64,000 nucleotides of DNA from Lentinus brumalis (Eukaryota > Basidiomycota > Agaricomycetes > Polyporales > Polyporaceae): positions 372,001-436,000 of the forward strand of contig MARA01000008.1 in the NCBI GenBank assembly GCA_001792895.1, in the 5' to 3' direction. The notes below the pieces were generated by a model. The model was not told where the DNA came from. It saw only the letters and a program-made list of their open reading frames with translations, and made no database searches. The position numbers were made by a program, and so were the translations under genes. Shown one piece after another: positions 28,043 through 63,626 of the stretch. The stretch's first letter is position 1; each line of letters begins with the position of its first letter.

Positions 28043-29314
28043 ATGGTCCTCTCAAACAACATCGCGGCCCTGCTAGGGTTTGCGTGCGAAGCGGTGCTTT
28101 GGGGTGCGTTCCCTCCTTTGCGTGTACGAGCCAGACTGCGGATTGCTCACGGCGTGCCAATTACAGGAATCTATGCCGTCCTGTTCATCGCTTCGGTCGT
28201 CCTGCTGCTCCGCCGCGTCAGGACGCGCAGCATGAACGTCCCGATCTTCATTGCGAACTTTTTGCTCTTCGCATCCTGCACGGCTCATTTCGCACTCGAG
28301 CTCAAGCATTTCTACGCTGCGCTAGTGAGTCCCCTCAGCGGAATGCTGCACGCGAGCGGGATGACTGACACGCTGAAGGGCTCCGTAGGTGTGGAGGGTT
28401 TCGCGGACGAGACTGCGGAACTCGTCGGCGCGGACCTGCTCATCTCCCTCAGCGACTTCCTCGGCGACCTCGTTCTGCTGTACCGATGCTGGGTCATATG
28501 GGGCAAGAACTTCTGGGTCGTCCTCCTCCCCCTGCTGACCGCAGCTGCCGGCTTTGGTGAGTCCTACATCCATACGGCGGTACCTCGCTCTTCATTGAAC
28601 GCGATCCCCGGCCCTTCGCAGGCTGCATAGTGGTCGTCGCTCACTGGATCCTGACGCTAAGCCCCACCTCGCCCGTGCCGCCAGCCGCGATCGTCCCACT
28701 TGGTACCGCAGGCTACGTGCTCCCGCTCGCGACGAACGTCATGGCCACCGCGCTCATCGTCACCAAGCTCTGGCTCACGGCACGAAGCGCTGAGCAACGT
28801 ATCGGCACGCGCATGCAGGGCACTGCGCGCGCCGCTGAGCGCGCGGTCGCGATCATCGTCGAGAGCGGCGTGCTCTACTTGGCCACGCAGCTGGTGTTTG
28901 TCGTCCTGTTCGCGCTCGGCCACCCGGCTCAGGCGATCCTCGCCGTGGTCGCCGTGCAAATTTATGTGAGTGTCGTGGCTTGGTCGTGGGGACCATCCAT
29001 GCTCCCGGGTGGACCGTTACGCTGACTCCTCGCGTCCTTGATAGGGTATTGCGCCAACGCTGATCGTCATCCGCGTCGCGCTCGGGATCTCGAGCGACTA
29101 CACCATCCCCGCCAAAGGCGGGTCTGGCGGCGACCTCTCTCTCAACTCGGACGACGTCAGCATGATGCGTCCGGGCTTCCTTCCTGCCATCCATTCGATC
29201 GGGGGTACGGAGGAGAGCGGACGCACGACTCTACACCCAGACGGAGAGTCCCATGAGATGAAGTCGTTCGACGTTGACTTTGAGAGCTGCAACGGTCACG
29301 CTGTTGCGGTCTAG
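28043..29314 (+). CDS. uncharacterised Agaricomycete seven-TM protein (module 1)
   Basis: The ATG at 28043 gives MVLSNNIAALLGFACEAVLW; a short intron leads to GIYAVLFIASVVLLLRR. Further exons give NVPIFIANFLLFASCTAHFA, GADLLISLSDFLGDLVLLYR and CWVIWGKNFWVVLLPLL. Then come LGTAGYVLPLATNVMATAL, IIVESGVLYLATQLVFVV, GHPAQAILAVVAVQIY and GIAPTLIVIRVALGISSDY, with a hydrophilic tail ending at 29314. About seven hydrophobic helices are seen, with the C-terminus probably cytoplasmic. The family is common in polypores and mushrooms and has no known function; receptor or transporter are both possible. A close paralogue lies at 62393-63626 in inverted orientation. It converges with the UstYa gene, 259 bp between stops. 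Confidence 0.85.
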
Positions 29315-29573
29315 TTCGTGGACCGTGGAGAATTGTTGACGCAAACGTTATATCTTGGCATAGAAAACGGGAGGCTGCTTGTACATTGTGTCGTTCGTTG
29401 CTTGATCTGTAGTCTACCAGTAGTTCTGACCTCTTGTCGCTCTTTCTTGTCACTCCGCTCGTTTTGTTGTATGATCAGTCTTTCTTTATAAACCCGGCGG
29501 CATCATTGACCTTGGAAGCGGTACAGTGGTACGGCATTTTATGTACATCGTATGTACGACGTCCGAAAACAAT

Positions 29574-30231
29574 CTACAGGTGAGCAGGACCCGCAGGGTG
29601 CTCGTCCAGATACTTCCGCAGCGCAGTCCAGTCCTTACACTCGCGCACCGACCCGATCCCCCAGCGGCATGCTCCAGTCGTCCATCGCGTATGCCAGGCT
29701 CGTCGGCCTCGAGCGTCGCGTCGGCGTTGCACAGCACCATCTGCAGCATGTACCGCAGGCAGTGCTCGACGTGGTGCGCGTAGCCCGTGCGGTTGGTCAC
29801 AAATCCGACGCGGAAGACGTCGAGACAGTGCAGCTGGTGCACCATCGAGACGAGGAACGTGCGATTCTGGGGCCCGAGGTCGGTGAACCCATCCGACGCA
29901 GGGAAGAGCGTGGCCCAGTCGTCGTCGGCGTACAGGGAGAAACCCGGCTCGCCGGAGCCCAGAGCGTGGTAGGAGGTTGGGAGGTTGATCGGGAGGCGCA
30001 TGGGGTGGTCCGTGCCAATGTACGCTGCGAGAGGATGATGTGTCAGCAAATGCACTGAGGTGGGTCGGGATACTGCTCACTGTACTCGTGCTCGCTATAG
30101 TAGCGGGTCACCAGGAGGAAGTGCGAGATCCTCGGGGTGACGACCCACATCAGGGCCACATTGAGCAACATGAAAGTGGCTACCGCCACGTTCCAGGGGA
30201 CGGTGAGCGTGATGCTGCGAGCAGCTGACAT
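29574..30231 (-). CDS. UstYa/DUF3328-family oxidase with 1-nt frameshift (module 1)
   Basis: UstYa-family proteins are membrane-anchored oxidases that act on ribosomal peptides in fungal RiPP pathways. Exon 1 (30231-30081) encodes a TM anchor (VAVATFMLLNVALMWVV) and ends EY. A 56-bp intron (30025-30080) leads to YIGTDHP, then FSLYADDDWATLFPASDGFTD. The family's paired HxxHC motifs appear as HQLHC (in VHQLHCLDVF) and HVEHC (in HHVEHCLRYM). Near the C-terminus the frame breaks: relative to the paralogue at 61541 the copy is one base short at a run of five C at 29658-29662. The conserved tail (CKDWTALRKYLDEHPAGP) is in the next frame, ending at 29574. Without correction the frame runs to 29486 with an unrelated tail. 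It could be a real mutation or an assembly error. It is divergent from the peptide gene at 31288. Confidence 0.8.
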
Positions 30232-31287
30232 GGCGGGTAGATGGCGGACGAGGTGAGTTGCTGGCAATGGCTTGCTGGCGGTGGGCAGAAGAGCAGCGAG
30301 CCGCCGCAAGACCCCGTACATGACACGGGACGCCCGCCCCGCCAAGGTCGTTTGCACGTCCTCGCGACCCAGTCGATTATTCCATCCTCGGGGAACGTGT
30401 TGTCGTCCCGTCCTACCTGGAGCACGCATAGCCCGAAAAGAATGGTCGCTAGCCTAAGTGAGGGACGGTCAATCGCGCCATACGCGTCCCAGCAGGCACC
30501 CGCCAAGAAGCGAATAGAATTGGGGAGTCCGCATACCCCAAGGTCGCCGGTCAGTCTGAAGAGGCGCGCTAAACCGCCGCGTGCAAGGCGTTCTCCTTGG
30601 GAATTGCAGTGGGTAGCCCGTGGTGGATCATCGCACCGTCAACGAGGTAAATGAAGTGCGCAATCTTGGCTCAACAGAGGAAATCGGGGTATTGCCCATG
30701 ACCTGCCCACAAGCAGCCTGTCCCGGGAGAAGACCTGCATGCGAGGTGCCCATTGGTGGATACGGCCCCGGTGTGCCATCCGCTCGCCGACGAAGCTGCG
30801 GACGAAGATCATTCCGACACCCTCTGCAATAGCTGCAGAACATCGTCAGAACTCGTCAATCCTCGCAGCACGCTCACTCACATTCTGTCACTACGCGGTG
30901 TCTATACCTTATCACTGGACAGGGCCAGAAGTCCAAGGGCCAGGAACGGTAGCGTTCTAGTGTCCGGTGGAATCCATTGTCGAAGTCCCGGCGTTCCAAC
31001 CGACGTTGCATACGTCAATGACCAGCAGAGACGTTCCCGAACGCATGGCTATATGTCAATCAGGAGTACGGTGAGTTCCAGACCGATTCTCCGGACAGCA
31101 GAGAGGGGTAGCTTACCGACCATACATGCATATCGTACATGATCCGACGAATGGCTAGAAGGTTTGCTCATGCGCCTCGTGTCTGCCGAGCGACTAAGCC
31201 AGCATGTTTATACCTAGGCGACTAGACGAAACGCAGGCACTCGCCCGCGTCTTGCCCAAGCTGTAGCGAACCCTTGAGAACCCCACC
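30232..31287. other. divergent intergenic region of module 1
   Basis: A 1056-bp region between the UstYa start and the peptide-A start. No gene was recognised. The matching region in module 2 is 1129 bp. Confidence 0.5.
31207..31213 (+). promoter_or_regulatory. TATA-like element of peptide gene A
   Basis: TTTATAC lies about 75-80 bp upstream of the ATG at 31288. The distance is much like that of the TATA-like element of peptide gene B. Confidence 0.35.
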
Positions 31288-31567
31288 ATGCGTGTCCTTT
31301 TCATCCTCGTCGTACTCGTATCCTTCACGTCGTCTATGCCCTTGATCGCAAGCCGAGGTTAGTCCTGCTGGACGATGGGATGCTGCACATGTACTCACCG
31401 CGGATGTCGGTCCATAGATAGCGACAAGGGTCTGCTGTGGAGGGGTTGCGCTCATCAACGAATCGACGGTGAGTTGCCCATCTCATCTGAGCCGGAGTCG
31501 CATGTGCTGACGGACGTCCCCAGCCACAGTCGACGGAGGATGCATTCCACCTCCCGCCGCTGTTTGA
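31288..31567 (+). CDS. small secreted peptide A (54 aa), W-R-x-x-A-H family
   Basis: Three exons: 31288-31357, 31418-31468 and 31524-31567. Both introns (60 and 55 bp) are phase 1 with GT-AG ends. Exon 1 is a signal peptide, MRVLFILVVLVSFTSSMPLI, followed by ASR. Exon 2 gives DSDKGLLWRGCAHQRID; exon 3 gives ATVDGGCIPPPAAV and the stop at 31565-31567. The mature peptide would be about 35 residues with two cysteines. The core L-W-R-G-x-A-H-x-x-I-D recurs in the peptides at 59399-59691 and 60135-60411, with identical intron phases. It is divergent from the UstYa gene. The small size and the splice reconstruction are the main doubts; the match to two other loci is the main support. Function unknown: RiPP precursor or secreted signal are inferences. 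Confidence 0.68.
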
Positions 31568-32040
31568 GTCATCGCCCGTAGGTGGATGCCGTGCTTCCTT
31601 GGCACTCTCACCGAGCTGACTTCGCTGGTAGGGCTCTGAACGCGCTCCATCTTAGAGCTCCAGTCGACGTGTCTGTATGATTATCCGGACTACTGTATAA
31701 CATTGTTGTATTCTCTATGACCCGTTTCCATCATTAGTATATGTTCGAGCTCGGCGTTGAGTGGCTTGTGAATGAAGACGTACATGTAATATTCACCTAG
31801 ACATCCGCGCAGGTTTGCGCATTCGCAAATTCCAATCCAGATATTATCGAGAGAACGAACCTGTATGTAACAAAAAAATGTAGTGTGGAGAATCGGGAGA
31901 GAGAGAAGTAGACAAAAGTAGACGGAGTCATAAGCGCCAAAGCATGACGCAATCACAAGGGGGATGTGAACGAAGGGTATCCGCAAAGCCAGTCCGATAT
32001 TTTTCCGATTTCGAGCACGACCAAGTCGGCTATGGACGCC
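31568..32040. other. intergenic, no gene seen
   Basis: A 473-bp stretch between the convergent peptide A and HMG-box genes; AT-rich in part (about 31670-31930). No feature was recognised. Confidence 0.45.
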
Positions 32041-33478
32041 CTACGCGGCAGCGCCATCCATGTTCAACCAGTCGTCTAGCCCTTGCGTCCACAGGTGACG
32101 GGGAGAAAGCGTCTGCGACGAGTCCTCTTCGCTCACATCGGCCGGAGAGAGGCCGGAGAATGATGAAGATGCGGTAGACGAAGGTTCGAAGGACACGTTG
32201 ATCGAAAGCAAAAATTCCTCCACCTCCACGTCCAACGATGCAGCAGGGGCGGATTCGATGGACGCCGCTTGAGCAGCCGAGGACGTGCACGACTGCGGCT
32301 CGTGCATTCCATCTGAAGGGGAGATGGGTCGCACCGAAGACATATCGAGCAGGTCGGGCATGGACATCGGAGCTTGCGCGGGGCTTTGGGTGACGCTGGT
32401 GGCATACTCGGTGCCGCAGTCGTTGTTCGAGCTCCAAGGGGCGGTCCAAGGCTCGGCTCCATCTGGAGCTGGCGTGAGACTCCCAGCGTCGGGGAAGTAG
32501 CAAGCTCGCTCGTCTTGGGGGATAGGTGAGGCGAACGGATTGGAACCAAAGTCGACGTCGGAAGGCTGGGTCCAGCCTGGATGCTGCATGTCTGACAGGC
32601 CCAACTAGAATACAAGACCCATGAGCGAGAGCATAGAAGTATGAGGGCGGATCACGTACGTTTACCATGCCAGGGTGGAAGGTGCCCATCGGAGGCAATG
32701 TACCATGAGGGAATGTCGACGGCGGGAATCCCTGAGGAGTCATGACAGTATCGTGATAGTGGTAGCTCGGCAGCATGCCGTGCTGGGTCCCCCCGTGGAC
32801 ACTGGTAAGTCCGTATCCCATCGACGAAGCGAGACCATACAGCAGTTGTGTACGGCGCATCAATTCCGAACGATCATCGAGGGGAAGCTGTAAGCACGTA
32901 GTGAGTATAGGTCGGATGGTTGTAGCCCGTAGAAGACGCACCTGGTTGAGCGATGCTGGACACGGATGCGAGAAACCGCTAAAACCAATAGGTGCCACTG
33001 GCGCCGTCAGAGGCGGTGTAGGGATGGGAGAGGGAGACAGCGACGACGTTGACGAAAAGCTTGACGTCGACGACAAGGAGGGAGTCGACGGAGACGGAGA
33101 GCACGATGAGAGAGGTGGTTCAGAGTGATAAATAGTGGTGGCCTTCCGTCCCTTCCTCGCAATCTTGGCTGCGTTGTTTGCGATCCTATTCCGGGTTCTC
33201 GTACGTTTGGCACCAGCAGCAGCCTTCTTGGCCTTCTGCGGCTTGTAGCTCCATTCTGGATACTTGAGCTGGTGTTCTTTTTTAGCCGCATCGGCCATGC
33301 GAAAGAACACCATCTTGGCCTCGATCGGTTCCAATGCCCAGGCGCGGCCAGCAATGATGGAGACTACGCTCCCTGGAGGAGTCCTGTTGTACATAAGTCG
33401 TAGCGTCTTGAGCGTGTTGTTCCGGTAAAAGATGAACGCATTGGGCGAACGCGGAATCTTGACGGTGTCGCCGGGCAT
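32041..33478 (-). CDS. HMG-box transcription factor (442 aa)
   Basis: Nuclear DNA-binding protein with a MATA/Sox-type HMG box. The start at 33478 gives MPGDTVKIPRSPNAFIFYRN, the first helix of the box. GSVVSIIAGRAWALEP and AKKEHQLKYPEWSYKPQK complete it (box about residues 6-76). A strongly basic stretch, AKRTRTRNRIANNAAKIARK, is a likely nuclear localisation signal. Exons are 33478-32942, 32887-32660 and 32604-32041, all phase 0, giving 442 aa. The rest is Ser/Pro-rich with an acidic, Ser-rich C-terminus that may be an activation region. Its place between the peptide/UstYa module and the P450 raises the possibility of a local regulator. HMG factors in Agaricomycetes also act in mating and fruiting. 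Confidence 0.88.
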
Positions 33479-34804
33479 TGGAAGTCGTGTGGCCGAGGAA
33501 GTGAAGGTTATGGCTTTGGGAGGGAGCGAGTCGACGAGGAAGATAATGGTGGACGGACAAAGCTGGAGCTGTGAACAGATAGGCAGGGGAGTGGCTCGCA
33601 GAGGAGAGGGGCGGGGGAAAGGTGATAGTGGGCAAGGGATAAAAGCCTGCTCAAGATATATGCAGTGTGGCACACGCTTTGGCTCGCGAGGAAGTCAAAG
33701 CGTACCCGCGTGCATACCCTACCTCCGCTCGCGACAGTCCAAGCTGTTTCGTCGTCTCAGCCAGCACATACAGAGGCCTATAGGTGAGTAGATCATGTCC
33801 TTCCACCAGTCGTCGAGTTCCTGCGTTGCGATGAACTTCTGGAGTCGCTGTAACGCATAGTGCGGTAGCGCGCTAAGTACGAGGCCGGCAAAGCGACCTG
33901 GAACAGCCACACCGGAGCTTGAAATGAGGGAAGCCAAAGCGTTGACTTGTCGACATGAGGCTCCAGCGGTGAGCACTTCGACTCGAGACCGCCTGGCACC
34001 TGCTATAGCGTCCCTCGGACATCAACAACGGACTCGTGAGGCGCCCTCGTGCGCTATGGCCGCTCGTACGGTATGCATCACGATGGCGAAAATCAAGGAA
34101 TGCGCGAGCTGTCAATGAGAGATTCAAGCTCATGAGCATACAAACCAGGTCAGAGTGAATCACTCACTACGTACAGCGAGCGCATCGCTGGCTCAAGCCT
34201 CATGCTAATCTGCGCGAAACTGCTCCAGTGCGTATCATCGCAACACCAGTATCATGTTCTATATCTCAGGGACGTCAGTCTGTGGCATAGACTCGCAGGA
34301 CGTTGCAATATATATACCGCACCGGCATCATGTCGCATGAGTGCGACGTGGAGAGGACATTAAGGTGCATCGGGTCGACAGCTACGGCGGCCAAAGCTGT
34401 GAGCGCCTGTGAGTGGCGCGTCGGGCGTCGGGGGGCGCCGACCTGCCCTAAACTCACCGCCGTATAAAAATTGGCCGCCCTGGTATGTTGTTTCTTCAGA
34501 ACATACTCAGCTAGGATCTATTTTATAGGTACTAACTCGAGTCTCGCATGTTTACACATGCCACATCCTTCATATCCAGTCGATGACACCCCCGTCCGCT
34601 CGTATAACCGAGAACATGGCCGCCTCGTTGCGGTCTCGAGGACGTTTGGATCGCGTCCTCTCTCCCTCTTCGGAGTGGTTAGAGGCGCGAACCAGCGAGT
34701 TGGACGTATGTCTGATGGATTACGACACTTGTCGTTGTTGTTGTATGCTCCAATGTATTAGCTAGTTCAATCCAACTCTCATTCTCATACCTCTCGCGTG
34801 GCAT
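33479..34804. other. intergenic, no gene seen
   Basis: A 1326-bp stretch between the HMG-box gene start and the P450 stop. Only short frames without motifs were seen. Confidence 0.4.
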
Positions 34805-37220
34805 TCACAAAAAGTCGCTATTCCGTACGAGCCTGATGTCCAAGGGACACTGCATGGTCTTCAGGTCGCCATGAGGCGGACGGACCACTGGGACCTGCAG
34901 ACCGTCCATTCGCCAGTACACTTCCTTCTTCACCCCGTCGCAATTTCCAGCCGAGGGGAGAGAGAAGTGCAGTTGGCATATTAGCGTCGAGATGATTTGC
35001 TCTGCAAAGTGTAAGTATGGCATACCAGGAAGGCAATGGATGCTACGCACTCATTTCCATCTCGGCGAATTTGAAGCCGCTGCACACCAGATGAGTGGCG
35101 TGTTGCACTCAAAAGGCAGGCATGGTACTCACATACACGCTCGTCCACCGCCCAGGAATGTCATCCTGCGACGGATGTGAGGTCAGGAACATGCAGCTCG
35201 AGCACAGCAAAAACTCACATCGTCGCATATACGCCCGGATACTTGACCCCATTCTTGAATCCTGGAGAGCCCTCTACGTCTTGTCCCACACTCTCCTCCC
35301 CAAACGCGAGATCGACGTTCTTCCCGAACCCGATCCGCTCGCCGTTAGCGTTGAGCCACCGTTCCGGACGCCACTCTGACGCGTCCTCGCCCCAGACACG
35401 CTTCTCGTGGTTTGAGCCGAGGATGGACATGATGATATTCGTGCCGGCGGGAACGTGTATCGCCGTCACCTCTTCTCCGGTTGTGGACCGTACGGGGAAC
35501 TGCAGCGGGAGGATGGCGTCCTTTGTGCAAGTGCGGTTGAGCATGCTCGTGGGAGGATGGACGCGCAGGGTCTCGCGCACTACTGCATCGAGGAACGGGA
35601 GATGCACAAGGACGTCGTAAGGGAGGTTCACTCGTTCCCAATCTTCCTCGAGACCTTGCTCCGAGGCATACTGTTTCTTCGCCTTGCGAATTTCGGTGCG
35701 CAATCGGGCTTGCGCATGGGGTTCACGAGCGAGGATGTACAAGATCCGCGCGAGGGCAGTTGTAGTAGTCTCTTGACCCGCGAGAAGGAACGTACTGTCG
35801 TAAATGTAAGGTGCATCTGAGAGCGCAAAAGTAGCGTAGACATACTTGATCTGTCCCACGAGCTCGTCCTCGCTCATCCGCTCATGCTCTGACGTGGACA
35901 TGTTCGCGTTCACTAGACAACGCAGTCAGTGAATACATGCTACTCTCTCGTCAAAGAGAGACTTCAGCTCACGCATGATGGTCATCAGATCTCTCTTGTC
36001 CCCGACGTCACTGTCCAGTTCATCCTGCATCGCAGCCTTGCGCTCGAGGAAAACCTTCCTGGCGGACCTGTCCAATACGTACGAGATCTCGCGCAGCTCC
36101 CGTAGAGCCGGGAACGGCAGCCAGTCCACGAGCTTGTTCCGCCAATATGGCGAAAGGTTGCGCATAGCCATCGGTACAAGCGGTCGGAGGAAGAACACCT
36201 TCAAGCCTGTGTGCCTGCGTCGACGCCAACATCGTTAAGCTCGCAAACCTACGCATGACAAGCTTATCACGCACGCGACAGTACGGATGGCGTCCGCATA
36301 TTCATCTGACTTCATGGTGTCCAGCATGTCCAAGGATATGCCTAAGACGGCACGACCTACGTACTCTAGGGTACCGCGCGCCATCCAAGGGAGGATGTCG
36401 ACTTCCTTGGTGCCTATGAAAAGTAACACGGTTGAATCAATATGCGAACATCCACACGCAAGGAAAGAATGGGACACACCTCCGTCCTCCGGGAGTTCGC
36501 CGCGGAGATGCTCAAAGAGGGTGTCCGCGATCGGTTGGATGGTAGGCAGCAGAGACCGCATATTCGCCAAGGAGAAGACCGGGTTCAGCATCTTTCGCTG
36601 CTTCCTATGCTGCCCCCCTGCGCGGCTTATCAGCGACGTCGTGATGAGCGGACGAAGAGGGGCAGCGCACCCAGTGTTGAGATGAGACCTTCCCCAAACA
36701 GCAACCTGTTCGTCCTACAACGCCAAATTAGCCCAAGCTCGTTACGCTGAGAGACAACAAGGCATGTTCCTTGCTTACATGATGAACATATCGCTCTCCT
36801 GGTAGACTTCCTGATCTTTGAGGAGGATATGGTACAGCGCTCGCGGGTCGGAGACCAACAGCTGATCAGCCTATTCGAGACGGAGATATCAGCTCAGATC
36901 GTACAGCAAGCTTGCCGCCGCTCGGACACGTACCCCAAGCACGCCATGCACTTTGATCACGCTGCCATATTTGGCGAAGAGGTCGAAACTGTACTCAAGA
37001 CCATCCTTGAACAGACGATGAAGGTTGCCTGACGAATCGGTGAGCTCAGTGCGCACACTTCATGTCGAGATGATACGTGGGACTTACCGGTCAGCCAGTG
37101 GTCTTTCCGAGGCCCTGAGACACTCGATAAGGGCGATCGAGTCGATGAGAGTCGACTGGAGACCAGTGTCCACAGCAGGGACGCAACGACAAAGGCGCCT
37201 ATGTATGCTTGCACTGACAT
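34805..37220 (-). CDS. membrane-anchored cytochrome P450 monooxygenase
   Basis: ER-bound heme monooxygenase. The start at 37220 gives MSVQAYIGAFVVASLLWTL, the N-terminal anchor. Exons follow with GNLHRLFKDGLEYSFDLFAK, RKMLNPVFSLANMRSLLP (C-helix region) and LPWMARGTLEYVGRAVLGI. The I-helix oxygen-binding motif is AGQETTTTALARIL. ExxR is ETLR in VVRETLRVHPPTSMLNR, and the PERF-like segment is WRPERW. The heme-binding loop, split by an intron, reads FLGGGRACIGFKFAEME with its cysteine ligand. The C-terminus ends NSDFL at 34805. About ten introns join in frame and all P450 signatures are present, so it looks functional. The motifs resemble basidiomycete CYP5150-like enzymes, but the subfamily is a guess and the substrate is unknown. 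Confidence 0.9.
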
Positions 37221-38096: not shown

Positions 38097-39171
38097 TCAA
38101 ACATCACAGTCGAAGGCCCTGAGGACAGCGCGCTCCACTGCTTTGGCCTGCTCTTCTTCCTCGGCAGTCAGCTCACGCGTCTCAAGTTCGACATCAACGT
38201 CAGGCATGGTATGGCCGAGTCCAGTTCGCACCAGCCCAAGCGCAGACAAACAACCCTACAGAGAGGCATGTCAGACAGGATAGTCGTGATGCCATAGGCC
38301 CGACGTACGAAGATCTGGACGACCGCCGCGCCGACGGCGTACTTGAATGGATGTTCCAACACCACAAAGAGGAACAGCACGGCCTGGGCAAGCAGGTGGA
38401 GGAGTCCACATTCGACGAGAACCGACGCGGCGGACACGAATGTCTTCTTTTCCTGGGGATTATCCAAGCTGAGGAAGTATGAGCGCCGGTCCAATCCGGC
38501 GGCAATGAGGGGAATTGTCGATAAGTTCGAGTAAAGAAGGAACGAGTGCCCGATGATGGATAGAATTGTGCTCAGAAGGCGGTCGGGGTCGGACGGGTTG
38601 AATGTGAAGTTGGTGGCCAACACTGCCGGCAGTTAGGGGTGCGCACGGCGGGGAGGGAAGGAGACACAACGTACCGAACCCGAGCAGGGCCGCGGCACCT
38701 GCGGGGAGGACCACCCATGTTTCCTTTCCCCAAACCTTCCAGCAACGGTTGACAAGTAACAGGAGTCCGATTGCGTTGCAGAGGGGGATGAGGATGTCTC
38801 CAGGACTTCCTGAGATGGCGTTGACACCGACATTCTGCTGGTTTTATCAGCTATCCTGACAGTGACCCGAGACGACTATGTAGTAGAGATGACCAACCGT
38901 CACAGCCCATACGGCATCAATACCTGACATGAGGTGCATGGTGCAAGCCACAAAGAGCAGACCGCTCATGACGAAGACTGGCCGGGGCGGCCTTTCATGC
39001 TCGGCACGGCGGTAGCAGAGCGCAATTGACCAAAACAAAAGGTGCAGGTATACGCCTAGAGGGTTGTATCAGAGGTGTGGCGCGAGGGCAGAGCAATATG
39101 TGTCACATACCCCACAGCGTAGACTCCACGGCGAGCCCGACCAGAAGCGTGGAGGAGGCTGGAGCAGGCAT
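38097..39171 (-). CDS. third seven-TM paralogue with acidic tail
   Basis: The start at 39171 gives MPAPASSTLLVGLAVESTLW, and a short intron leads to GVYLHLLFWSIALCYRR. Further exons read FVMSGLLFVACTMHLMSGID, NVGVNAISGSPGDILIPLCN and LLLLVNRCWKVWGKETWVVL. Then come LLSTILSIIGHSFLLYSNLS and VLVECGLLHLLAQAVLFLF, GHPFKY-like EHPFKYAVGAAVVQIF, and a last exon starting GCLSALGLVRTGLG. Helix order and intron positions match the genes at 28043 and 62393, though it is clearly more diverged. The last exon continues into a charged tail with TRELTAEEEEQAKAVERAVL and stops at 38097-38099. Unlike its paralogues it has no UstYa or peptide gene beside it. Confidence 0.78.
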
Positions 39172-41258: not shown

Positions 41259-42218
41259 ATGAGCTCAAAACTTGCGCGGACGCTCCTTGCTGCGTCCTCG
41301 AGACGACCATGCTGCTCTGTCCCCTCCATTGCGTCTCGACACTACTCGACGCCAACGACGCCGCCCAATGATGACATGCGACGAATAGCAGAACAGCAGG
41401 AGTTCGCAGAGGCGTTGGCCCAGAGCCAACACTTCCCCAATCTCATGACCCCCGATGCTCTGCTCGACATTCACGAGAGCAAGACGTTCCCTCCCAACCG
41501 TCACACTCCCTTCGCGAACACTGTCGTCGTCCGCAATAACCCTTCCATCTTCCGCATAGCGCGCGAGATCGAGCGGGGCGAGAAGGACCATGCCCTCGTC
41601 GTCGACGAGGTCGAGAGCTCGACGGACGCCATGAAGCCCATCAAGTTCCTTCACCTTCCTCCATCCGAGCTGCAGAAGCTCCACCGCGCACAGCTCCTCC
41701 GATTCGTCAAGCAGCAGACGGGGAAGGGCAAGATTGAGCGCATCGCCATCCTCATGGTTGTTGGGAACGGGAGGGGATTGGTAGGGCTGGGAGAGGGCAA
41801 AGGCTCGGACTACCAGACCGCACTGGGCAAGGCGTTCCCGCAGGCGGTCCGCAACATGGACTACATCGAGCGATTTGAGGACCGCACCATCTGGACGGAG
41901 ATGGAGAGCAAGTTCGGGGCCACGCGCATCATACTTCGTCCGCGTCCCGTTGGTTTTGGGCTTGCGACGAACCCCATCATCCACGAAGTCTTCAAGGTCG
42001 CGGGTATCAAGGACGCTAGCGCGAAGGTGTGGGGGAGCAGGAACCCGTACCAGGTCATGAAGGCAGTGGTGCGCATGCTCCTTCCGGGACATATGCCTGC
42101 GCTCATGGGCAATGGTATTGGAGGCGAGGGGCGGACAATGGAGAAGGGCAGGGAGATGCGGTCAGCCATGGAGGTCGAGAGGGACCGCGGCAGGAGGATC
42201 GTCCCGCTCCACACTTGA
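41259..42218 (+). CDS. MRPS5: mitochondrial small-subunit ribosomal protein S5 (bS5m)
   Basis: An intronless gene of 319 aa. The N-terminus, MSSKLARTLLAASSRRPCCS, is Arg/Ser/Ala-rich without acidic residues, as in mitochondrial targeting peptides. The S5 RNA-binding domain is seen in KGKIERIAILMVVGNGRGLV, GLGEGKGSDYQTALGKAF and QAVRNMDYIERFEDRTIW. The C-terminal S5 domain has RIILRPRPVGFGLATNPII and FKVAGIKDASAKVWGSRNPY, with QVMKAVVRMLL. A fungal C-terminal extension of about 45 residues follows. It is part of the mitochondrial translation machinery, located in the matrix. No anomaly was seen. Confidence 0.93.
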   Translation: MSSKLARTLLAASSRRPCCSVPSIASRHYSTPTTPPNDDMRRIAEQQEFAEALAQSQHFPNLMTPDALLDIHESKTFPPNRHTPFANTVVVRNNPSIFRIAREIERGEKDHALVVDEVESSTDAMKPIKFLHLPPSELQKLHRAQLLRFVKQQTGKGKIERIAILMVVGNGRGLVGLGEGKGSDYQTALGKAFPQAVRNMDYIERFEDRTIWTEMESKFGATRIILRPRPVGFGLATNPIIHEVFKVAGIKDASAKVWGSRNPYQVMKAVVRMLLPGHMPALMGNGIGGEGRTMEKGREMRSAMEVERDRGRRIVPLHT

Positions 42219-43438: not shown

Positions 43439-45902
43439 TCACGAAGAGGGCAAGACCGCAGCGAAGAGCTTCCGGCGAGAACCAGTCGCGCGCAGACCGG
43501 AGCCGCTTGCGCCGCGGGCGCGCGTCCTCCGTGAGTGTCGAGTGCGTCGGGTGCACTGACTCCTTCTCTCCACGCGTCTCCACGCGGACGTGCGTCGGCT
43601 GGACGAGGCCCGTCGTCTGCGGGAGGCAGAGGTAAGGCTGGGGCTCGGGGACGCGCTCGTCGACGCGGAGAACACCCAGTTCGTGGCGTACGCCTCGGGC
43701 GCAGACTCGGTTTGGCGGGTCTTGCCGCGACCACCGAGCCCATGACCCGGGGAGGGAGAGAAAGGCTCGCGCCGCAGGGGAGAAGAAGATCGACGCGGGA
43801 AAGCGAGGCGGATGGGACGGAGGAAGCTCGAGGTGTGCGTCTTCCTGTCGCTGCGGGCGGTGGGTATCAGCAGAGGGCGTGTGGTGCGCGGCGGCGAGGT
43901 CTGAGGGGGAGGGGGGAGCTTCTCGGGCATGGACTGCGGGGAAGAGGGCGTGGCAGAGGTGCCAAAAGAGAATGCCGGCCATGCGACAGGCTCGCGCGGC
44001 GACGGCTGTCGTGATGGCGCGGGGGTCGCCTGGACCGTAAAAAACGAAAAAGGCGGAGTTGTGTTGCCGCTGGTGGCCTGCTTCGAGGGGTTGAGCCATG
44101 AGCAGATGCGGTCCCAGCTGTAGTTCGACTGCGAGTCGTCCGCGACTTGATGACGTGTTTGACCTTCGGTGGCGCCGAAGTCGAGACCGAGGACTGGTGA
44201 CTCCGGGCGCGCAGAGGGGAGCGAGTCGTACGTGTCAATCTCGGGATATTCGTCCTCGTCCATGTCGTGGTCTTCGGTAGCAGACGTGATGATCATGCCG
44301 ATATCCTCGCGCAAGTCGTCGTACGGCGAAGGCTTCGCGGTCGGGATGGAGCTCGGCTCAAGAGGCGAGTACATGTACCCCTCGCCCCAGGTGGACTCGA
44401 GCGCGGTATGCATCGTCGACGGCGTCGCGGAGAGCATCGTGATGCTGTTGTCGTAGTACTCGGGCTTGAACGTGTCCGTGTCGACCGTGAGGACGAGTTT
44501 CGGACGCGTCTGGTGGCCCTGATCCCATGCATGCGGCGTCACCGGCGGGGATGGGATGGACGGCGAGGAAGACAGAACAGAGTACGCGGATGCTGGGCTT
44601 TGTCCGGGGGTCTGTAACGCCTCGAAGAGCTTCGTTGTAGTATAAACGGGCGAGGCGTCGGGGCTGGGGGACATGGAGCGGGAGTACGAGGAAGAGGCGG
44701 GGGCGGACTCGTCGCGGCGCTGAGGACCGAAGGAGTCAGACCAGGACGACCCCTTGGCAAGGGAGCTCTCGCGGGCGAAGACCATCTCGGCGTCGGATCC
44801 GTCGCTCCAGGCTGAAGCGAAGTCCTCCTGAGGTTCCTGCTGCTCCGGAAGGTCCTGGGGCTCAGGTTCCGCCTCGGCAGAGGAATCGCTGTCTGCGTCC
44901 ACATTGACACCGGCTTCCCAGGGACAGCGCGCCATGCTTTCCTCGAAGAGGACGTCGGGTGAGTAGAAGTTGTCAATCGCGTTGAACGCGATGCGCATCT
45001 CGCGGAGAGTGATCCGCCGGCGCCAGTCGACCTCGAGCGTGCGCGTGAGCAGGGCGTTGACCTCCTCGGAGATAGGGAGGACGGTGGGAAGGAAGTGACG
45101 GGGGTCCTTAAGATACGCCTGGAACGTGCAGTCGTCCGCCGAGGCTGACTTCCACGGATTCCGGCCGGTGATGAGGTTGAGAAGGATGATTCCCAGCGAC
45201 CAGACGTCGTTAAATAGAGGGGAGTAGCTCCGCGTAGGTGCGAAGTATCCGCCTTGGCACTCTAGACCGGAGATGAGAGACATGAACGGAGGTTTAAGTG
45301 ACATGGGACATACCTGGGCTCATATGATAAACGCTGCCAGTGCGGAACTCGGTGCTCATGCGCTCCGTAGTCGCGAGCCCGAAGTCAGTGATTGCGAGCT
45401 TAAGCCCGTCCTCGAAGCAGAGGATGTTCTCGGGCTTCAAGTCGCGGTGATAAATAGTGAGGGAGTGGCAGTACTCAACCGCGTCGAGCAGCTGAAGAAA
45501 GACCTCCTTAATGAGGGCATTGTTGCCAAGATAGCGCCGCCGGTGCAAGATCTGAGTAAAGAGGTCGCCGTCAGGACAGTAGTCCATGACGATGAAGGTG
45601 TATTGGTAGTCCTCGACAACGCGGTGTAGCGTGACGACGTTGGGGTGGCCCGATGCAAGTTGGTGGAGGGTGATCTCGCGGATGTGTAGTTGGCGCTGGC
45701 GGGTGGCGTTGCGTTTGTTGGAGTGGGGTAGACACTTGACGGCGTAGGACGTCGGGCTGGAGGAGAAGGTGTCGATAGCACGGTAGACGATACCATACCC
45801 GCCGTACCCAAGAATCTCGACGAGCTGCAGAGAGCCATTGTCGATAAAGGTTCCAAGTGCCGGTGGCGTAGGTGACGCGGCGGATTGAGGAGAGGTGACC
45901 AT
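43439..45902 (-). CDS. Ser/Thr protein kinase, Ran1/Sks1-like, long Ser/Pro tail
   Basis: The start at 45902 gives MVTSPQSAASPTPP, then the kinase domain. The glycine loop is ILGYGGYGIVYRA and the beta-3 lysine is in SYAVKCLP. The catalytic loop is YHRDLKPENIL and the metal-binding DFG is in ITDFGLATTER. A ~52-bp intron inside the activation segment joins SVYHMSP to ECQGGYFAPTRSY, and DVWSLGIILLNLITGRNPW follows. This matches the fungal Ran1/Pat1/Sks1 group. A Ser/Pro/Glu-rich tail of more than 450 residues follows. The annotated frame ends with an Arg/Ser-rich stretch at 43439. An overlapping frame to 43386 instead ends with a hydrophobic helix (LALFVTFACFLIVGAA), so the last exon is uncertain. 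Confidence 0.85.
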
Positions 45903-48501
45903 GGTGGCCAGCGAGAGGGAGAAGAGGGAGGGAGAGCGGAGAGCGTAAGTGCTCGCAAAGAGCTCGCAGAGCGTTGAGGAGGACCCAGGGGAAGGGTTCC
46001 AGAGTCGGGAGGCTTTATTAGAGACCCGGGGAGAACGTGACAAAGGGCTGGCTCGAGCGTGTACACCATGAGGCAGAGGTGATCGCCTAGGGTGCACGAA
46101 GGCAAGCGAGCCGCTGTCCGATTGAGCTAGGAAATAGGAAGCGGCCTCGAGGACTCCGAAGGTCAAAGATACGGGCTGGTGATCCTGCCCTTCTCGCGGC
46201 ACAACGCAGAGCTGCGTTATGAAGGTTTGGCTGCAGCGTGTGATCGATGTGCTTCAGCCGGGAAACAATACCTGACGCGGGCGCGGGCGTCGGGATCCCG
46301 CCTGCATTCCAGCCAAGGCCGTGCCTGTCGCTTCGGGGTGCGTTGCCATGAATCTGCGTAAGAAATGACCGCGACGGAGGACGGACAATAGGGGGTCTTC
46401 ATCTTCGGTGTCCATACTGATGTCGGATCGGGCGACCGCGCCTCGGCCGACTCGCACGTTGCCGGCCCGGGAGAGCGCTGCAGCACAGCATTGAACTTGC
46501 TGCCCCTTCCGAGGTGCGGTTCTGGGGCTCGACGGGGGCATTCGGGGGTGCAATCAAGCTCTTGAACCCGCACCGCCATCCGCGAGGGTCGAGGAGGAGG
46601 GACTTTGCATGCGCTCCGGGACCTCGTGTTGCTGAGAGAGCATCACTAGGGCCTCCATTCCAGCTCGGGCTTCCATCGCGCCACTGCGTCGAGCGTAAGT
46701 ACTGTAATGCCGAGGCTGACAGTGACCGAGATAAGACACATACGTTGTGACTGCATCATTGGTTACTCGGGCTGCAATGAATGAAGCCACTCAATAGTTA
46801 CGCCGCCAGAACCGCAGCAGGGACGAAGAAATACCTAAACTATACAAACCGCTATCAAAAGAAGCGGGTGCCTGTCGGTGTTGACGTAGTCAGCCTGTCT
46901 GTTTACTGCCTAGTGAGATTAACGTCGAGCTCCATACCTCTGCGGTTGTCATCCATTTCAAGGCTCTGAAGCACCATTACAAGGTGCTCGGTAGGCTGAC
47001 TGAAGGCCACAAGCCTGTGCGGTGCTCCGTCGCCTGAACGTAATATATCGCAGATAAATTGCGCCCGTTGGGATGTTCACATCACAGTGGTTATGAATGT
47101 TGCGACACCGTCGAGGAGGATCCTCGCGCTGCGCCTCCTGGCGATCCCTTGGAGAACAACGTCACCCTGGCTCACGAATGCGCCGCCAAACAAGACTGGT
47201 CAGTCATGCGGGGAGCTCCTGATGCGTGTGTCCGCTACGTACGAGCTTGCCTCCACGTCTCACCTTAGCCGCCGGTCACGACATCGCCTGCAAGAATGTT
47301 CCTGCAGGTACCGCAGTGGATCGCCTCCTGCCGGACCTCAGACACGGCGTCTACATAGCACAAGGTCCGAGGGTCTGAAGTGCAAAGCAGCGATAAGACA
47401 TCCAGAAGCATCGTGTGTATGCGTGTGTAGCGACTGACCTCGATCGGTGACGCATCTCGACGCTCGTTCGTGTCCTGCGTTGGTCTTGTGGCTCTGGCAC
47501 TTCATATCCGCGAATTGGCCGTGCCGCACGCCGCGATTCTAGATATCCATGCACGGTGTGTCCATGGGAAGCGGCGTCTTCGTGCTGGGTCACTGGATAA
47601 GGTTGCGGAACGCATCGAAATGGGGATCCGGATGAAGGAAGGACACTCGGATGGAATCCTCCGTCGCGTGAGATACCGATACACATCGTAGCTCGGAGAC
47701 GCCAGACATGTCGCCCATATCGCCACTTCGCGCACGAGGCTCTGAGGTGGTGTGTATAACGCATGATAGCGGGGCTGCGCACGTCGCTTTAGTGGCTGCA
47801 ATACAGGTGGTGCAATGTACGACGACTCACCATGCGCTATGCGAGATGCGCGCCGCAACGCGTCCGCTATGGCAGGCCGCAGAGGTCGTGTCGGCAGCGT
47901 GCTTTACATACCCAGGCGCTGCTATCCATGAGTTGTATGTAAGCTGTAATCAAAATGACTGAAGACGCGGTGGACGATATGTGTGAAGGGCATCAGGTGG
48001 CAAGCAACGGAGCGTGGATAAAAGGCAAGCAGGCTTGGCTGTCCTGTGAGGCGGACGTGCTTGGATGTCTCCTACGGTGACCATGTTGGAGTTCGCGATA
48101 CGAGGAAGCCGGACCTAGTACTTGCAAGTTCAAGTCACACAGTCTAGGACGGTGAGCGAAGTGGGACCCATCCGGCACGCAGGAGCAGGCCGACAACGCA
48201 ACTTCTGCTTGACCATTGATTCTCTTGCCCGAACGACCGTGGCATCCAACGATCCCAGTTGATTCAAGCGACAGAGAAGCACTATTGAGCTCCCAGAGAG
48301 TCAGATAAAGGATGCTTTGTGCAGAAAGAGAACTGCGGGATTGCCAGTGGTTAGAAGACCACTTGGCGACGCGCCAAACTGCAAGTTCACCGCTGCCGGC
48401 CCTAAACACGACGCGTCGTAGCGCACGTGACCGCCACCTTGCCCTGCGCTCGCGGAGACTCTCGAAGTCGGCGCTGGTCTCCCTCCTCCTGGTAGAAAGA
48501 C
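45903..48501. other. long intergenic region, no gene recognised
   Basis: A 2599-bp region between the divergent kinase (-) and ATP10 (+) genes. Several short frames exist on both strands but none carries a family motif or a convincing splice chain. It may hold promoters, long UTRs or a non-coding transcript. Confidence 0.35.
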
Positions 48502-56388: not shown

Positions 56389-56492
56389 CTACTTGTCCGC
56401 AGATACGGCGGGTTTTTATCAGTGCTGCACTCGCCGGATGCAGGTCCGCTCACCATTGGTATCTTCAGGTGCGCTCGGTTGCGCCATCATTT
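56389..56492 (-). pseudogene. relic of a small secreted peptide gene (exons 2-3)
   Basis: On the minus strand TGGCGCAACCGAGCGCACCT encodes W-R-N-R-A-H-L and is identical to the same part of peptide gene B (59399-59691). The following intron-like sequence starts GTGAGC, and the exon-3 end GACAAGTAG is retained. The preceding codon has become TGA and no signal-peptide exon is present. It sits in the TPT 3' flank that was duplicated to 59.1-59.5 kb. Confidence 0.65.
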
Positions 56493-56710
56493 CTTTTGGG
56501 GAAGATCCCCTCTCGCACTTCAGGACTGCCGAATGTCGCAGAATATGTGACGCTGTAGACCTGGTCGTATCGACCGAAAGTACTGAGTTCGATGGCGATG
56601 TGCTGGTTGATTCTGATGGTCACCAGTCGGTGAGGAAAAGTATAGTAGCCTGCAAGGCGCAGAAATGGACTCACTTTTGTTGGGTGCTCCCCTCTGAGTA
56701 CTTAAGTACT

Positions 56711-59530: not shown

Positions 59531-59691
59531 GCTCGGAACTGTATGCAGGCCAATACACGAGGTGAGTATGCTTGCTGTCCTGGAGGTCTCGTCCGTGTCA
59601 CGGTGGGCTTACAGTCTGCTTCCTCTTCGGCGGCTGCGACGAACAGTACGAGGTAGAGCACGAGAAGAGCGAGTTGGACGAGTGAGCGCAT
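59399..59691 (-). CDS. small secreted peptide B (45 aa), W-R-x-x-A-H family
   Basis: Exon 1 (59691-59613) gives a strong signal peptide, MRSLVQLALLVLYLVLFVAA, then AEEEAD. An 86-bp intron (59527-59612) leads to exon 2 (59526-59482), encoding C-QLWRNRAHLKIDAS. A 69-bp intron (59413-59481) leads to a short exon 3 (ETDK) with the stop at 59399-59401. Both introns are phase 1, as in peptides A and C. The mature part is only about 23 residues with one cysteine. A TATA-like element lies about 70 bp upstream. The third exon is short, so its acceptor is the least certain point; an earlier acceptor would lengthen the tail in the same frame. Function unknown. Confidence 0.62.
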
Positions 59692-59759
59692 CGTGTGCAC
59701 TTGTCGAGATGAGGGACGACGAGGAAGATGGAGGTGGAGACGAGAGGGTGAGAGTACTG

Positions 59760-59765
59760 CTTATA
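59760..59765 (-). promoter_or_regulatory. TATA-like element of peptide gene B
   Basis: TATAAG on the minus strand lies about 70 bp upstream of the ATG at 59691. This supports a real transcription unit. Confidence 0.4.
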
Positions 59766-60134
59766 TTTCCCCACCATGACCAGCGCTGAATGTTTGAACG
59801 TTTAAACGCCGGGATGCCCGCAGTTCGTTGCGGTGGCTGGCACTGAACCTGAGGAAGCTTCAATCGACAAATCAGCGTTCGCAGCTAGATGCCGGGGCTG
59901 CCTTGCGTTCCATGGCCGCGCGGGGAAGATTGTTTAGAACTGTCGGCCCCCAGGACGGTCGTTCGAACTGTAACTATAGGACAATACCGAGTCGCTTGTC
60001 TCGTCTCGTCTCATAGTACATTTCGTAAGCTCTCCGAATACCCTCATAGTACAATATACCCCCTAATACCCGCTCTCCAGGTGTCGGTCTCTATGTTTGT
60101 CCCCGCGTATGCGTCTCGTATGCGGCCCACGTCG

Positions 60135-60411
60135 TCACTTGCCGACATCTGTTGCGGTTGCTCCTGAACGATGCCGCATTTCCAGGTGTCAACGTACTCA
60201 TCATCATGCACGACCGGGCGTACGCACCGTCGACACCGACATGAGCCGCGCCTCTCCAAAGGAAGCCGAGGTCTGCGGCTGCAACAAGCTGAGGTGAGTG
60301 CGGGTTCAGTGGGTGCACGGCCCTGCGCGAGCGGTCCTCACCATCTTCCGTAGGCTTGGCCTTGGCGAGAAGTAAGAAGGCGAGCATGGCGGCGATGGTG
60401 GCGAGACGCAT
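60135..60411 (-). CDS. small secreted peptide C (49 aa), W-R-x-x-A-H family
   Basis: Exon 1 (60411-60342) gives MRLATIAAMLAFLLLAKAKP and TED, a signal peptide. A 63-bp intron (60279-60341) leads to exon 2 (60278-60228), encoding AADLGFLWRGAAHVGVD. A 64-bp intron (60164-60227) leads to exon 3, giving ATATDVGK and the stop at 60135-60137; an acceptor three bases further on changes one residue only. Both introns are phase 1. The core F-L-W-R-G-A-A-H aligns with peptide A (L-L-W-R-G-C-A-H) and with peptide B. It has no cysteine. It is divergent from the UstYa gene at 61541, 1129 bp away, mirroring module 1. Function unknown. Confidence 0.65.
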
Positions 60412-61540
60412 TCTGATTCGAGATTGGTTAGGCCGCGGTAACTGGCGGGGAGTGGACGAGCGAGCTTTAGACTATCGGTGGGTTCCGTCCTGCCTTGCCT
60501 GCCCTGCCCGCCGACTTAAAATGAATCCGAGTCCCTCTGCCACAGCTTCTCACAGTCCATGCGCACCGCCAGACTGTCACGGTGCGGCATTCAGTCGCAA
60601 TTGTGAGTGCGTGCCTGTGTCGTTGATCCTCCCGCGCTGACACTCTCGCAGCTTGTCGTAGTCGTAAATGACCGAGGGACCGTTGAGATGCGCTCACAGT
60701 CGCGCGCCCGCGCCGATTGAGGGCACTTAGGTGCACGGTGAGGCCTCAAATCTAGAACGCCGGTCATCACCGCTCGCAGGTCTTGGACAGTTTGCTCCGG
60801 AGCAATGAGAACCGGAAGATCAACAGCAATCGCAGCATGGCCGTGTTGCACTGCGCCGCCACGTCTCCAGCTTGCTCGTTGTTGCGCACGCTTTTAGTCT
60901 GGTATCATTTTGCACCGTTGTCACCATAGGACTCCGACGACCGCGGTATATGCGAGGGTATCGCTTCCATTGAACCTCTCCATATCCGTCGTGTGTTGTC
61001 TCCATTACTGTAGCGCACGCAGGGTCTGCTATCAATGACATGACAGGTACGCAGGCGATGGGTTCTTGCCTCACATACTCGTACTTAACGGCGCATTGCA
61101 CCCCTCAATCAGCGTGCCTTACTCCGGAGGAGTGTGATTTCAGCTCGTAACGGCTCACAAACTGCGGTCTGGGGCCCTGATCGCAGAACCCACTCAGCCC
61201 CGCTCATCAACGAGGGTGCTAGGTGCCTTCCCATACAGAAGAGGGATGTCCACTCCCGATCTCAGGCTGCGCCACAGCCCTGTCTAGGTGGCTCACGGCC
61301 TGCTGCCACCAACGATGGGCGCGACAGAGAAGCATGTGGAGGCGATGTGGTATTGTCCTCAGCGACGCGCTGCAATCGCAGCTGCGTGTCTTCGCAGCTC
61401 CCTAAGCAGTTCCATCGGGCTTCAACAGCAGCATTTGAGTATCATCCTCGGTTGCTAGAGTGAAGACACACTCCAGGTACGCTGAAGGGCAGAGATACTG
61501 ACACGCCTCTTCGTCCCTCATGTCCCATTGCTAGAACAAG
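60412..61540. other. divergent intergenic region of module 2
   Basis: An 1129-bp region between peptide C (-) and UstYa (+). A marginal further peptide-like minus-strand frame starts near 60838 (opening MLRLLLIFRFSLL), but it lacks the W-R core and is not called. Confidence 0.4.
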
Positions 61541-62168
61541 ATGCAAATATCCTCTCGCATATTGGTGTTCGCCTTGATGGGGGTCACGGTCCTCAATATG
61601 ACATTCATCCTATGCCTCCTCAATGCACTGGAGGCCTTACTTCCTACAGAACACCAGTACAGTCCGTCTTGCACCGTCATTTTAATAGCACAAACTGATA
61701 GAACGTGCCTCAGCATACGTAGAAGATGACTTTCCCTCTCAGCTACCCCTCCGGCTCCCCTCAGTCGGACTCGTCCTCGCGAACGGGGCCCCGCACTTCT
61801 CGCTATACGCCGACGACGACTGGGGCACTCTCTTCCCGGAGTCGGACGGCTTTACCGACCTCGGCCCCAAGAACCGCACATTCCTCATTTCATTTGTGCA
61901 CCAGCTGCACTGTCTCGACGTCTTCCGTGTCGGCTTCGTGACGAACCGCACCGGGTTTGCGCACCACGTCGAGCACTGTCTGCGCTATATGCGGCAGGCG
62001 GTGCTGTGCTACGCCGATACGACGTTGGAGGTCGATCACCCGGGGCTGCTGGATGGGAAGTGGGAGCATGCGGCAAATGGAGTGGGGTCGGTCCATCGTT
62101 GCAAGGACTGGACGGTGCTGAGGGAGTACATGGACGAGCATCCAGCTGGGCCGATAGAACAGCGCTGA
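61541..62168 (+). CDS. UstYa/DUF3328-family oxidase, intact (module 2)
   Basis: A 191-aa membrane-anchored member of the UstYa family. Exon 1 (61541-61661) has a TM anchor, LVFALMGVTVLNMTFILCLL, and ends QY. A 52-bp phase-1 intron (61662-61713) leads to YVEDDFPSQLPLRLP, then FSLYADDDWGTLFPESDGFT. Both HxxHC motifs are present: HQLHC at residues 103-107 and HVEHC at 125-129. Between them is DVFRVGFVTNRTGF. The C-terminus reads DLRx-like GSVHRCKDWTVLREYMDEHP and ends at 62168 without a break. In known pathways such proteins cyclise or oxidise core peptides; here the substrate is unknown. It converges with the seven-TM gene (224 bp) and is divergent from peptide C. The paralogue at 29574 has a frameshift. 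Confidence 0.87.
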
Positions 62169-62392
62169 TGTCCATAGACGCACCCACCACGGGGCAACTT
62201 TTACATTGTATCCTCTCAGAGTCTGAGAACTGAGACGATAACGAATCCGCACTGCGGTACAACGAAGATACAGGAAGCACAAGCAATAGTGAAGTGTTCA
62301 AAATACTACGCACCGCCCTCAGTTGCGGTCACTGTGCAACACCACCTAATCGCGCTCCGAGGATCGCCACCAAATGTCGAACTCGCGCGGTC

Positions 62393-63626
62393 TCACACCG
62401 CATGACCGCGCCCTGTGCGTCCCGGACCGTCGAACACCTTCATCTCCGCACTGTCTCCATCGCCCGACGAGTGGAGCGTCTCCTCCGTGCCGTGCGAGCG
62501 AATACCAGGGAGGCCGCTCGGCCTTGGGCCACCAAGTGAGCTGGATTGCCACCCGGAGCCGCTCCGAGCAGTAGGAGTCTGCTGAATTGTGTGCTCGCTC
62601 GTGATCCCGAGCGCGACCCGGATGATGATGAGAGTAGGAGCGATGCCCTTCATGAAGTTGAGGTAAGTCGACTGCCAGACTGGAGGAGACAATCGAACAC
62701 TTACGTATATCTGCACAGCGACGACTGCAAGAATTGCCTGAGCAGGGTGTCCCAGGGAGAAGAGAACGACGAATATGAGCTGCGTGACGAGATAGAGCAC
62801 CCCGCTCTCGACGATGATAGCGACCGCTGTCCGACCAGTGTTGCGTGTACTTCTGTAGAGCCCCGCGACGGGTCCTGCTCCGGTGCGACCCATGATTGAC
62901 CAGAGCTTCGCTACAATTAGGATCGTGGCCATGAAGTTGGTCGCGAGCGGTAACGAGTATCCCGCAAGACCCAGAGGGACCAGCGCAACTGGGACAACTG
63001 GGTCCGTATGGTCGAGCGTCATGACGATGTGGGCGACTCCCATGACGCAGGCTTGAAGGAGTAGATACGCAAGTCAGGGATGAAGCTGGTCGAGGAGAGA
63101 CTAACATGGGATGCTCACCAAAGCCCGCAAGTGCCGTCAGCGCGGGGAGGATAATAACGCAGTATCTACGCTCCCATACAATCCAGCAGCGATATAGGAG
63201 GATGAAGTCGCCGAGGAGATCGCAAAGCGATATGAGAATGTCCGCTCCAAGTAATGGCTTGGTCTCGTTCGCGAAACCATTTACACCAGTCGATACCTGC
63301 CATCGTCTGTGTCATGACTTGGGCGAGACGCATTCTGAATAATGAGAACTCACCAGAGTGGTATAGTAGTGATTAAATTCGAGGACGAAATGCGCCGTGC
63401 AGCACATATAGAGCAGACAGATAGCGGCAAGAGTATTCACGTTGACGCCATTGGTCGGAAGGCGCCGTATGAGGAGGAAGACAGCCGCTAGGAATAGGAC
63501 AGAGTAGACCCCTTTAGAGCCTCGATGTCAGCTGCAACGGAGAAACGCGTATCCAGAGCACATACCCCAACAGACTGCCTCACAGGCAAACCCAACGAGA
63601 GCGGCAAGGTCGTTAGTGAGGGCCAT
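62393..63626 (-). CDS. uncharacterised Agaricomycete seven-TM protein (module 2)
   Basis: The start at 63626 gives MALTNDLAALVGFACEAVCW, nearly the same as the gene at 28043. Exons follow across 63.5-63.1 kb for helices 2-4. A long 3' part has HIVMTLDHTDPVVPVALVPL and GLAGYSLPLATNFMATILIV, then IIVESGVLYLVTQLIFVVLF, GHPAQAILAVVAVQIY, GIAPTLIIIRVALGITSEHT and a hydrophilic tail ending RGHAV at 62393. Several helices differ from the module-1 copy by single residues only, so the duplication is fairly recent or constrained. Function unknown; repeated pairing with UstYa and a secreted peptide suggests a linked role. Confidence 0.84.

Follow-up and report, generated by a model that had tools for sequence, protein, structure and literature searches.

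A 64,000-nucleotide stretch of the Lentinus brumalis genome, hereafter the window (C115:372001-436000 of a 53.4-Mb assembly in 136 contigs), carries two mirror-image copies of a three-gene module. Each copy consists of a gene for a seven-transmembrane (7TM) protein, a gene for an oxidase of the UstYa/DUF3328 family and a small gene for a peptide precursor whose N-terminal hydrophobic segment is read from the sequence. The genes were modeled by spliced reconstruction with GT-AG introns, and positions are those of the window unless a contig is named.

28043-29314, plus strand: 7TM1, seven-helix protein; five exons (28043-28103, 28167-28324, 28379-28556, 28622-28965, 29045-29314); spliced model
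30231-29574, minus strand: UstYa1; two exons (30231-30081, 30024-29574); PF11807 at E 1.9e-9; frame change after both HxxHC motifs
31288-31567, plus strand: PepA, 54-residue precursor; three exons, two phase-1 introns; core KGLLWRGCAHQRID; spliced model and motif search
59691-59399, minus strand: PepB, 49-residue precursor; three exons, two phase-1 introns; core KGQLWRNRAHLKID; outside the trio of the first-pass annotation
60411-60135, minus strand: PepC, 44-residue precursor; three exons, two phase-1 introns; core LGFLWRGAAHVGVD; spliced model and motif search
61541-62168, plus strand: UstYa2, intact; two exons (61541-61661, 61714-62168); PF11807 at E 2e-16
63626-62393, minus strand: 7TM2; five exons, the last intron of 57 nt and exon 5 at 62647-62393; spliced model
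56460-56510, minus strand: decayed copy of the PepB core exon, with an in-frame stop ahead of WRNRAHLKI

The first-pass annotation of this DNA had arranged six of these genes in two mirrored trios, and all six were rebuilt where it had placed them. The spacing that it described is exact, with 259 and 224 bp between the convergent stops and 1056 and 1129 bp between the divergent starts. The module is indeed present twice: the 7TM, UstYa and peptide copies are homologous and have equal intron phases. Identity is 58% between 7TM1 and 7TM2 (341 columns) and 72% between UstYa1 and UstYa2 (125 columns), and the modules also have five stretches of DNA in common (26-356 bp, 74-92% identity). On sequence grounds, the likeness between the copies is homology and not chance. 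Both 7TM genes are interrupted after residues 20, 73, 132 and 247/248 by introns of phases 1, 0, 1 and 0, both UstYa genes contain a single phase-1 intron, and the core exon of each peptide gene is flanked by two phase-1 introns. PepB, the third peptide gene of the window, lies 0.4 kb from PepC.

PepA, PepB and PepC share the core G-x-L-W-R-x-x-A-H-x-x-I/V-D. A search of the whole assembly with W-R-x-x-A-H-x-x-[IV]-D returned four matches, three of which are these genes, and a backward control pattern returned one. The fourth match (C50:412598) was rejected because it is absent from the gene-structure scans, which covered its short locus. Among the residues shared between the cores, different codons are used for 7/8 (PepA and PepB), 4/8 (PepA and PepC) and 5/7 (PepB and PepC), which argues for peptide coding sequence under selection. 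None of the three precursors matches a Pfam family at E<=1.

Do the three genes recur together elsewhere in this genome? A third close 7TM paralogue, 7TM3, has exons 1-4 at C104:979486-980392. No exon 5 turned up in the examined stretch of C104, and one of 80 residues, which matches the end of the L. brumalis protein P0031 at 85% identity, lies at C87:197405-197166; P0031 matches both parts of 7TM3. A third UstYa gene (C87:196374-197017), 96-97% identical to P0142 of Polyporus arcularius, is convergent with this exon at a distance of 142 bp. 7TM3 is split inside intron 4. Its two broken ends share a 20-base repeat (C104:980413-980432 and C87:197466-197485) that occurs six times in the assembly; either the repeat took part in a rearrangement or the assembly was misjoined there. 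A fourth peptide gene, PepD, lies divergently 889 bp upstream of 7TM3 on C104. Its product starts with MR and has a hydrophobic segment, and two phase-1 introns interrupt the gene, whose core exon reads TTHGGKLYLGHTHMTIA. Its core widens the motif to G-x-L-[W/Y]-x3-[A/T]-H-x-x-[I/V]. The 'WKRVAHF' reading on the plus strand of C104 was rejected, as it is the opposite strand of the first exon of PepD. A scan for the peptide gene structure over 274.5 kb recovered PepA, PepB, PepC and PepD plus one weak extra; the scan extras at C104:980611 and at position 41591 of the window were dropped as peptide genes. The position of the peptide gene varies: PepD sits beside the 7TM start, and PepA and PepC sit beside the UstYa start. 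Thus, the recurrence of the three genes together, claimed for the window, extends to three trios in this genome, and all three close 7TM paralogues found (3/3) have a convergent UstYa gene and a peptide gene built on one shared plan of three exons separated by two phase-1 introns.

The UstYa proteins belong clearly to their family. UstYa1, in the part that was scored, and UstYa2 reach 38.1 and 61 bits, respectively, against PF11807 (curated cut-off 25), and each contains both motifs of the HxxHC(x)nHxxHC copper signature. Over the aligned parts, UstYa2 shares 99% identity with P. arcularius P0122 and 97% with L. brumalis P0121. A profile search of solved structures with UstYa gave a single weak match (E 0.35), and when the UstYa alignment was run against viral_contigs and genome_contigs, none of the 91 and 69 pattern matches, respectively, proved to be a relative. 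CctR, a DUF3328 enzyme, is described as a dinuclear-copper, oxygen-using, lumen-facing membrane enzyme (PMC12435403), and the same orientation would therefore place UstYa on the route of a secreted precursor. UstYa genes also occur in convergent UstYa-UstYa pairs in place of a UstYa-7TM pair (C1:927466-928561 and C46:776080-777769).

The 7TM protein has a predicted fold that resembles G-protein-coupled receptors (GPCRs). P0001 of P. arcularius HHB13444, which is 99% identical to 7TM1, is predicted to form seven helices, and the best match of the predicted fold among solved structures is the pheromone receptor Ste2 (Foldseek). The first-pass annotation had left export, sensing and localization as candidate roles; among them, the predicted fold favors sensing. 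In sequence, the family stands apart. A profile search of solved structures found no relative at E<=10, and 7TM1 and 7TM2 have no Pfam match at E<=1, save a chance-level viral family (E 0.22) in 7TM1. The Ste2 profile (PF02116) matches neither window protein at E<=1 and one of 19 relatives at E 0.012, and the DUF6534 profile (PF20152) matches neither window protein and four of the 19 relatives weakly (best E 0.026). The C-terminal tail is unconserved, yet 56 of the 84 relatives of 300-360 residues among those listed end in Val.

The first-pass annotation also proposed that co-location of these genes be sought in other Agaricomycetes, and for the 7TM and UstYa genes such linkage is apparent. 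Protein searches listed the best 120 of 124 relatives for 7TM and 113 for UstYa, with a species name on 87 and 58 rows, respectively. These listings hold no genomic context, and linkage was read from the presence of a 7TM and a UstYa relative on contigs of equal length, which is strong but indirect evidence of a shared contig. Among the matches listed, 24 of the 31 other named genomes with both proteins have them on equal-length contigs, compared with approximately 1.1 expected by chance if genomes of 40 Mb are assumed. The species concerned are assigned to Polyporales, Boletales, Gloeophyllales and Russulales. A 59.8-kb contig of Cubamyces sp. BRFM 1775 is listed with two 7TM and two UstYa proteins. 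If locus tags are numbered serially, so that their distance reflects gene distance, the two genes are close in four genomes (GSI_14644/14645, J3R83DRAFT_12284/12285, A0H81_12649/12651 and ONZ51_g1251/g1248) and far apart in two (PsYK624_015650 versus 138020 and 138070; TRAPUB_262 versus 980).

The pairing extends to clades in the trees, that of UstYa being a quick tree. All six members of one UstYa clade (P0171, P0181, P0187, P0191, P0199 and P0219) are on equal-length contigs with one 7TM clade (P0040, P0075, P0025, P0086, P0104 and P0057). Three of the four database rows in the UstYa1 clade (P0158, P0168 and P0178) pair with module-1 7TM proteins (P0007, P0004 and P0008), and P0134 is unpaired. 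Two of the four database rows in the UstYa2 clade, both from L. tigrinus (P0123 and P0125), pair with 7TM proteins of the module-2 type (P0015; P0018 and P0022), and the contig with P0018 and P0022 also has P0002 of the module-1 type; the remaining rows, P0121 and P0122, share an equal-length contig with no 7TM protein. These distributions bear on the possibility that segment duplication keeps the genes together as an inherited neighborhood with no joint function. In keeping with that explanation, the trios of this genome arose one from another and do not count as independent cases, and 7TM and UstYa lie apart in some genomes. However, it is rendered very improbable by the equal-length contigs across the four orders and by a distant 7TM family that has the same convergent pairing. 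Members of this family lie on C46:

C46: UstYa 714771-715208, convergent with distant-family 7TM 716874-715740
C46: UstYa 796257-795850, convergent with distant-family 7TM 794203-795471
C46: UstYa 803190-803606, convergent with distant-family 7TM 805060-803946
C46:802411-801207: fourth member of the distant 7TM family, without a convergent UstYa

Together, six of the 14 UstYa matches in the assembly are convergent with a 7TM gene (two on C115, one on C87 and three on C46). The spliced-gene scan that recovers PepA and PepD detected no peptide of this kind near the C46 pairs; three weak unrelated candidates there were not accepted. UstYa enzymes require electron input (PMC12435403), and this need, the three C46 pairs and the presence of 7TM-UstYa linkage in many genomes, with the peptide found only here, suit an explanation in which the peptide is a bystander. 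The 7TM protein and UstYa would then be a functional pair, with the 7TM protein serving UstYa in localization or reductant supply or sensing another UstYa product. Such a pair is unlikely to be the whole system, given that each of the three close 7TM paralogues has its peptide gene with the same intron plan and that the peptide scan is crude and would miss peptides of other sequence. Moreover, the alignment of 19 7TM proteins has a single invariant His, which speaks against a b561-type haem electron carrier.

Other genes also lie in the window. An HMG-box gene (PF00505, E 2.5e-7; 32033-33694, minus strand) lies directly beyond PepA. Between the modules are a P450 piece (35218-35925, minus strand), a distant 7TM relative with approximately 30% identity and an interrupted reading (38231-39056, minus strand) and a protein-kinase gene (43442-46253, minus strand).

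We propose, with roughly even confidence, that the trio is a polypore peptide-signaling cassette in which UstYa matures the peptide of its own trio and the 7TM protein of that trio senses it. The N-terminal hydrophobic segment would direct the short precursor into the secretory pathway. UstYa, as a membrane-anchored, lumen-facing copper oxidase, would oxidize or cross-link the single conserved core, most plausibly at Trp and His because these residues are conserved in three of the four cores. The released peptide would be sensed by the co-encoded 7TM protein as a GPCR-like receptor. The trio itself exists in at least three duplicated copies.

Several observations weigh against this proposal. 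PepD has Tyr-Leu where the other cores have Trp-Arg, and a Trp-based modification is therefore inapplicable to it. UstYa1 is not one open frame, since a conserved 25-residue C-terminal stretch after the HxxHC motifs sits in another frame; the gene is thus either damaged or mis-assembled. The 7TM protein (via P0031) and UstYa (via P0142) of the third trio fall in non-matching clades. A protein search with the three-peptide alignment gave three candidates and one hit, P0234, which is a protein from another deposit and an unspliced reading of PepB; by these crude means, the peptide was not found outside the lineage. The fold comparison used a model with a predicted local distance difference test score (pLDDT) of 71, no Foldseek match reached E 0.001, and other GPCRs and rhodopsins followed closely behind Ste2. 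Weak matches to other membrane families occur among the 19 7TM relatives, two of which match EXS (best E 4.5e-4). Finally, seven of the 31 genomes have no shared contig among the matches listed (L. brumalis, Multifurca, Phanerochaete sordida, P. arcularius, Suillus lakei, Trametes elegans and T. pubescens); several of these exceptions involve short draft contigs, and S. lakei and P. sordida seem otherwise.

A small defense cluster of ribosomally synthesized and post-translationally modified peptide (RiPP) type would use the same parts differently: UstYa would mature an antimicrobial or repellent peptide, and the 7TM protein would shield the producer or handle the product in the membrane. UstYa enzymes have been described for peptide natural products, most of them toxins (PMC9233826, PMC12435403), and the twin modules with a decayed peptide copy fit birth-and-death evolution. 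Nevertheless, we regard a defense function as improbable. The intervals between the genes of the trio showed no additional gene for a tailoring enzyme, protease or transporter, the predicted 7TM fold is nearer to receptors than to transporters among the solved matches listed, and the 7TM-UstYa linkage appears broad and old, whereas toxin clusters would be patchy.

If the signaling proposal is taken further, the trios may represent a hitherto undescribed modular peptide-recognition system in Agaricomycetes. Each module would combine a modified peptide with a single core, a dedicated copper oxidase and a dedicated Ste2-like receptor, and such sets would be duplicated and diversified for self/non-self or developmental signaling. 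We offer this extension tentatively, as somewhat doubtful; if true, a receptor and a maturation enzyme of RiPP type would be genetically tied. Mushrooms commonly carry UstYa genes; Pleurotus ostreatus has 16 (PMC8893723). Yet in basidiomycetes, only 103 of the 1680 repeat-type precursors surveyed lay close to a DUF3328 gene (6.1%; PMC7329392), and UstYa substrates are therefore mostly unknown. Many Agaricomycete 7TM proteins are likewise orphans. Tiny three-exon precursors, easily overlooked by gene prediction, beside UstYa and a receptor-like 7TM protein would address both questions together, and the trio would make it directly testable which peptide, which modification and which receptor are involved.

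Among known systems, the dikaritin RiPP pathways (ustiloxin, phomopsin and asperipin), to which the first-pass annotation likened the trio, also place a UstYa/DUF3328 oxidase next to a secreted precursor gene. Their precursors contain repeated cores between Kex2 sites (PMC7329392, PMC9233826). In contrast, PepA-PepD have one core apiece and no KR, RR, KK or RK site, and the unit includes a 7TM gene; the analogy therefore holds for the enzyme family alone. The trio UstYa shares with the DUF3328 copper enzymes of the CctR, ApnU and AprY type the HxxHC(x)nHxxHC signature, a single N-terminal hydrophobic segment and PF11807 (PMC12435403). It belongs to a different clade and would act on a peptide of its own, whereas CctR acts on a non-ribosomal peptide. 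The moroidin-type burpitides of plants resemble the proposed maturation, with a copper cyclase acting on a short core, although their enzyme is a plant BURP-domain protein, unlike UstYa, and the Trp-His spacing also differs. The moroidin core contains W-R-G-H, unconfirmed by the text searched.

On the receptor side, the basidiomycete B mating locus has Ste3 receptor and short lipopeptide pheromone genes side by side in duplicated sub-loci, and the trio resembles it in its adjacent, duplicated receptor and peptide genes. The B mating locus is without an oxidase, unlike the trio, and its pheromones end in a CaaX box, which is absent from the C-termini of PepA-PepD (PAAV, ETDK, DVGK and RNFE). 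The Ste2/alpha-factor system of Ascomycota is comparable in that the predicted 7TM fold best matches Ste2 and a secreted peptide is the likely ligand. It differs in its Kex2-processed repeat precursors, in having no oxidase and in sequence, the 7TM protein having no relative among solved structures. In PMC12842992, the STE2 class is reported in Ascomycota only, and DUF6534 proteins are described as orphan 7TM proteins of Agaricomycotina and proposed GPCRs. The window 7TM proteins are likewise orphan 7TM proteins of the same fungi, although they do not match DUF6534. The absence of a described system with this trio, as the first-pass annotation had it, agrees with the literature searched (bioRxiv and most subscription journals lying outside it), which holds no UstYa-7TM-peptide unit. 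The combination is without a known counterpart, and each of its parts is of a known kind.

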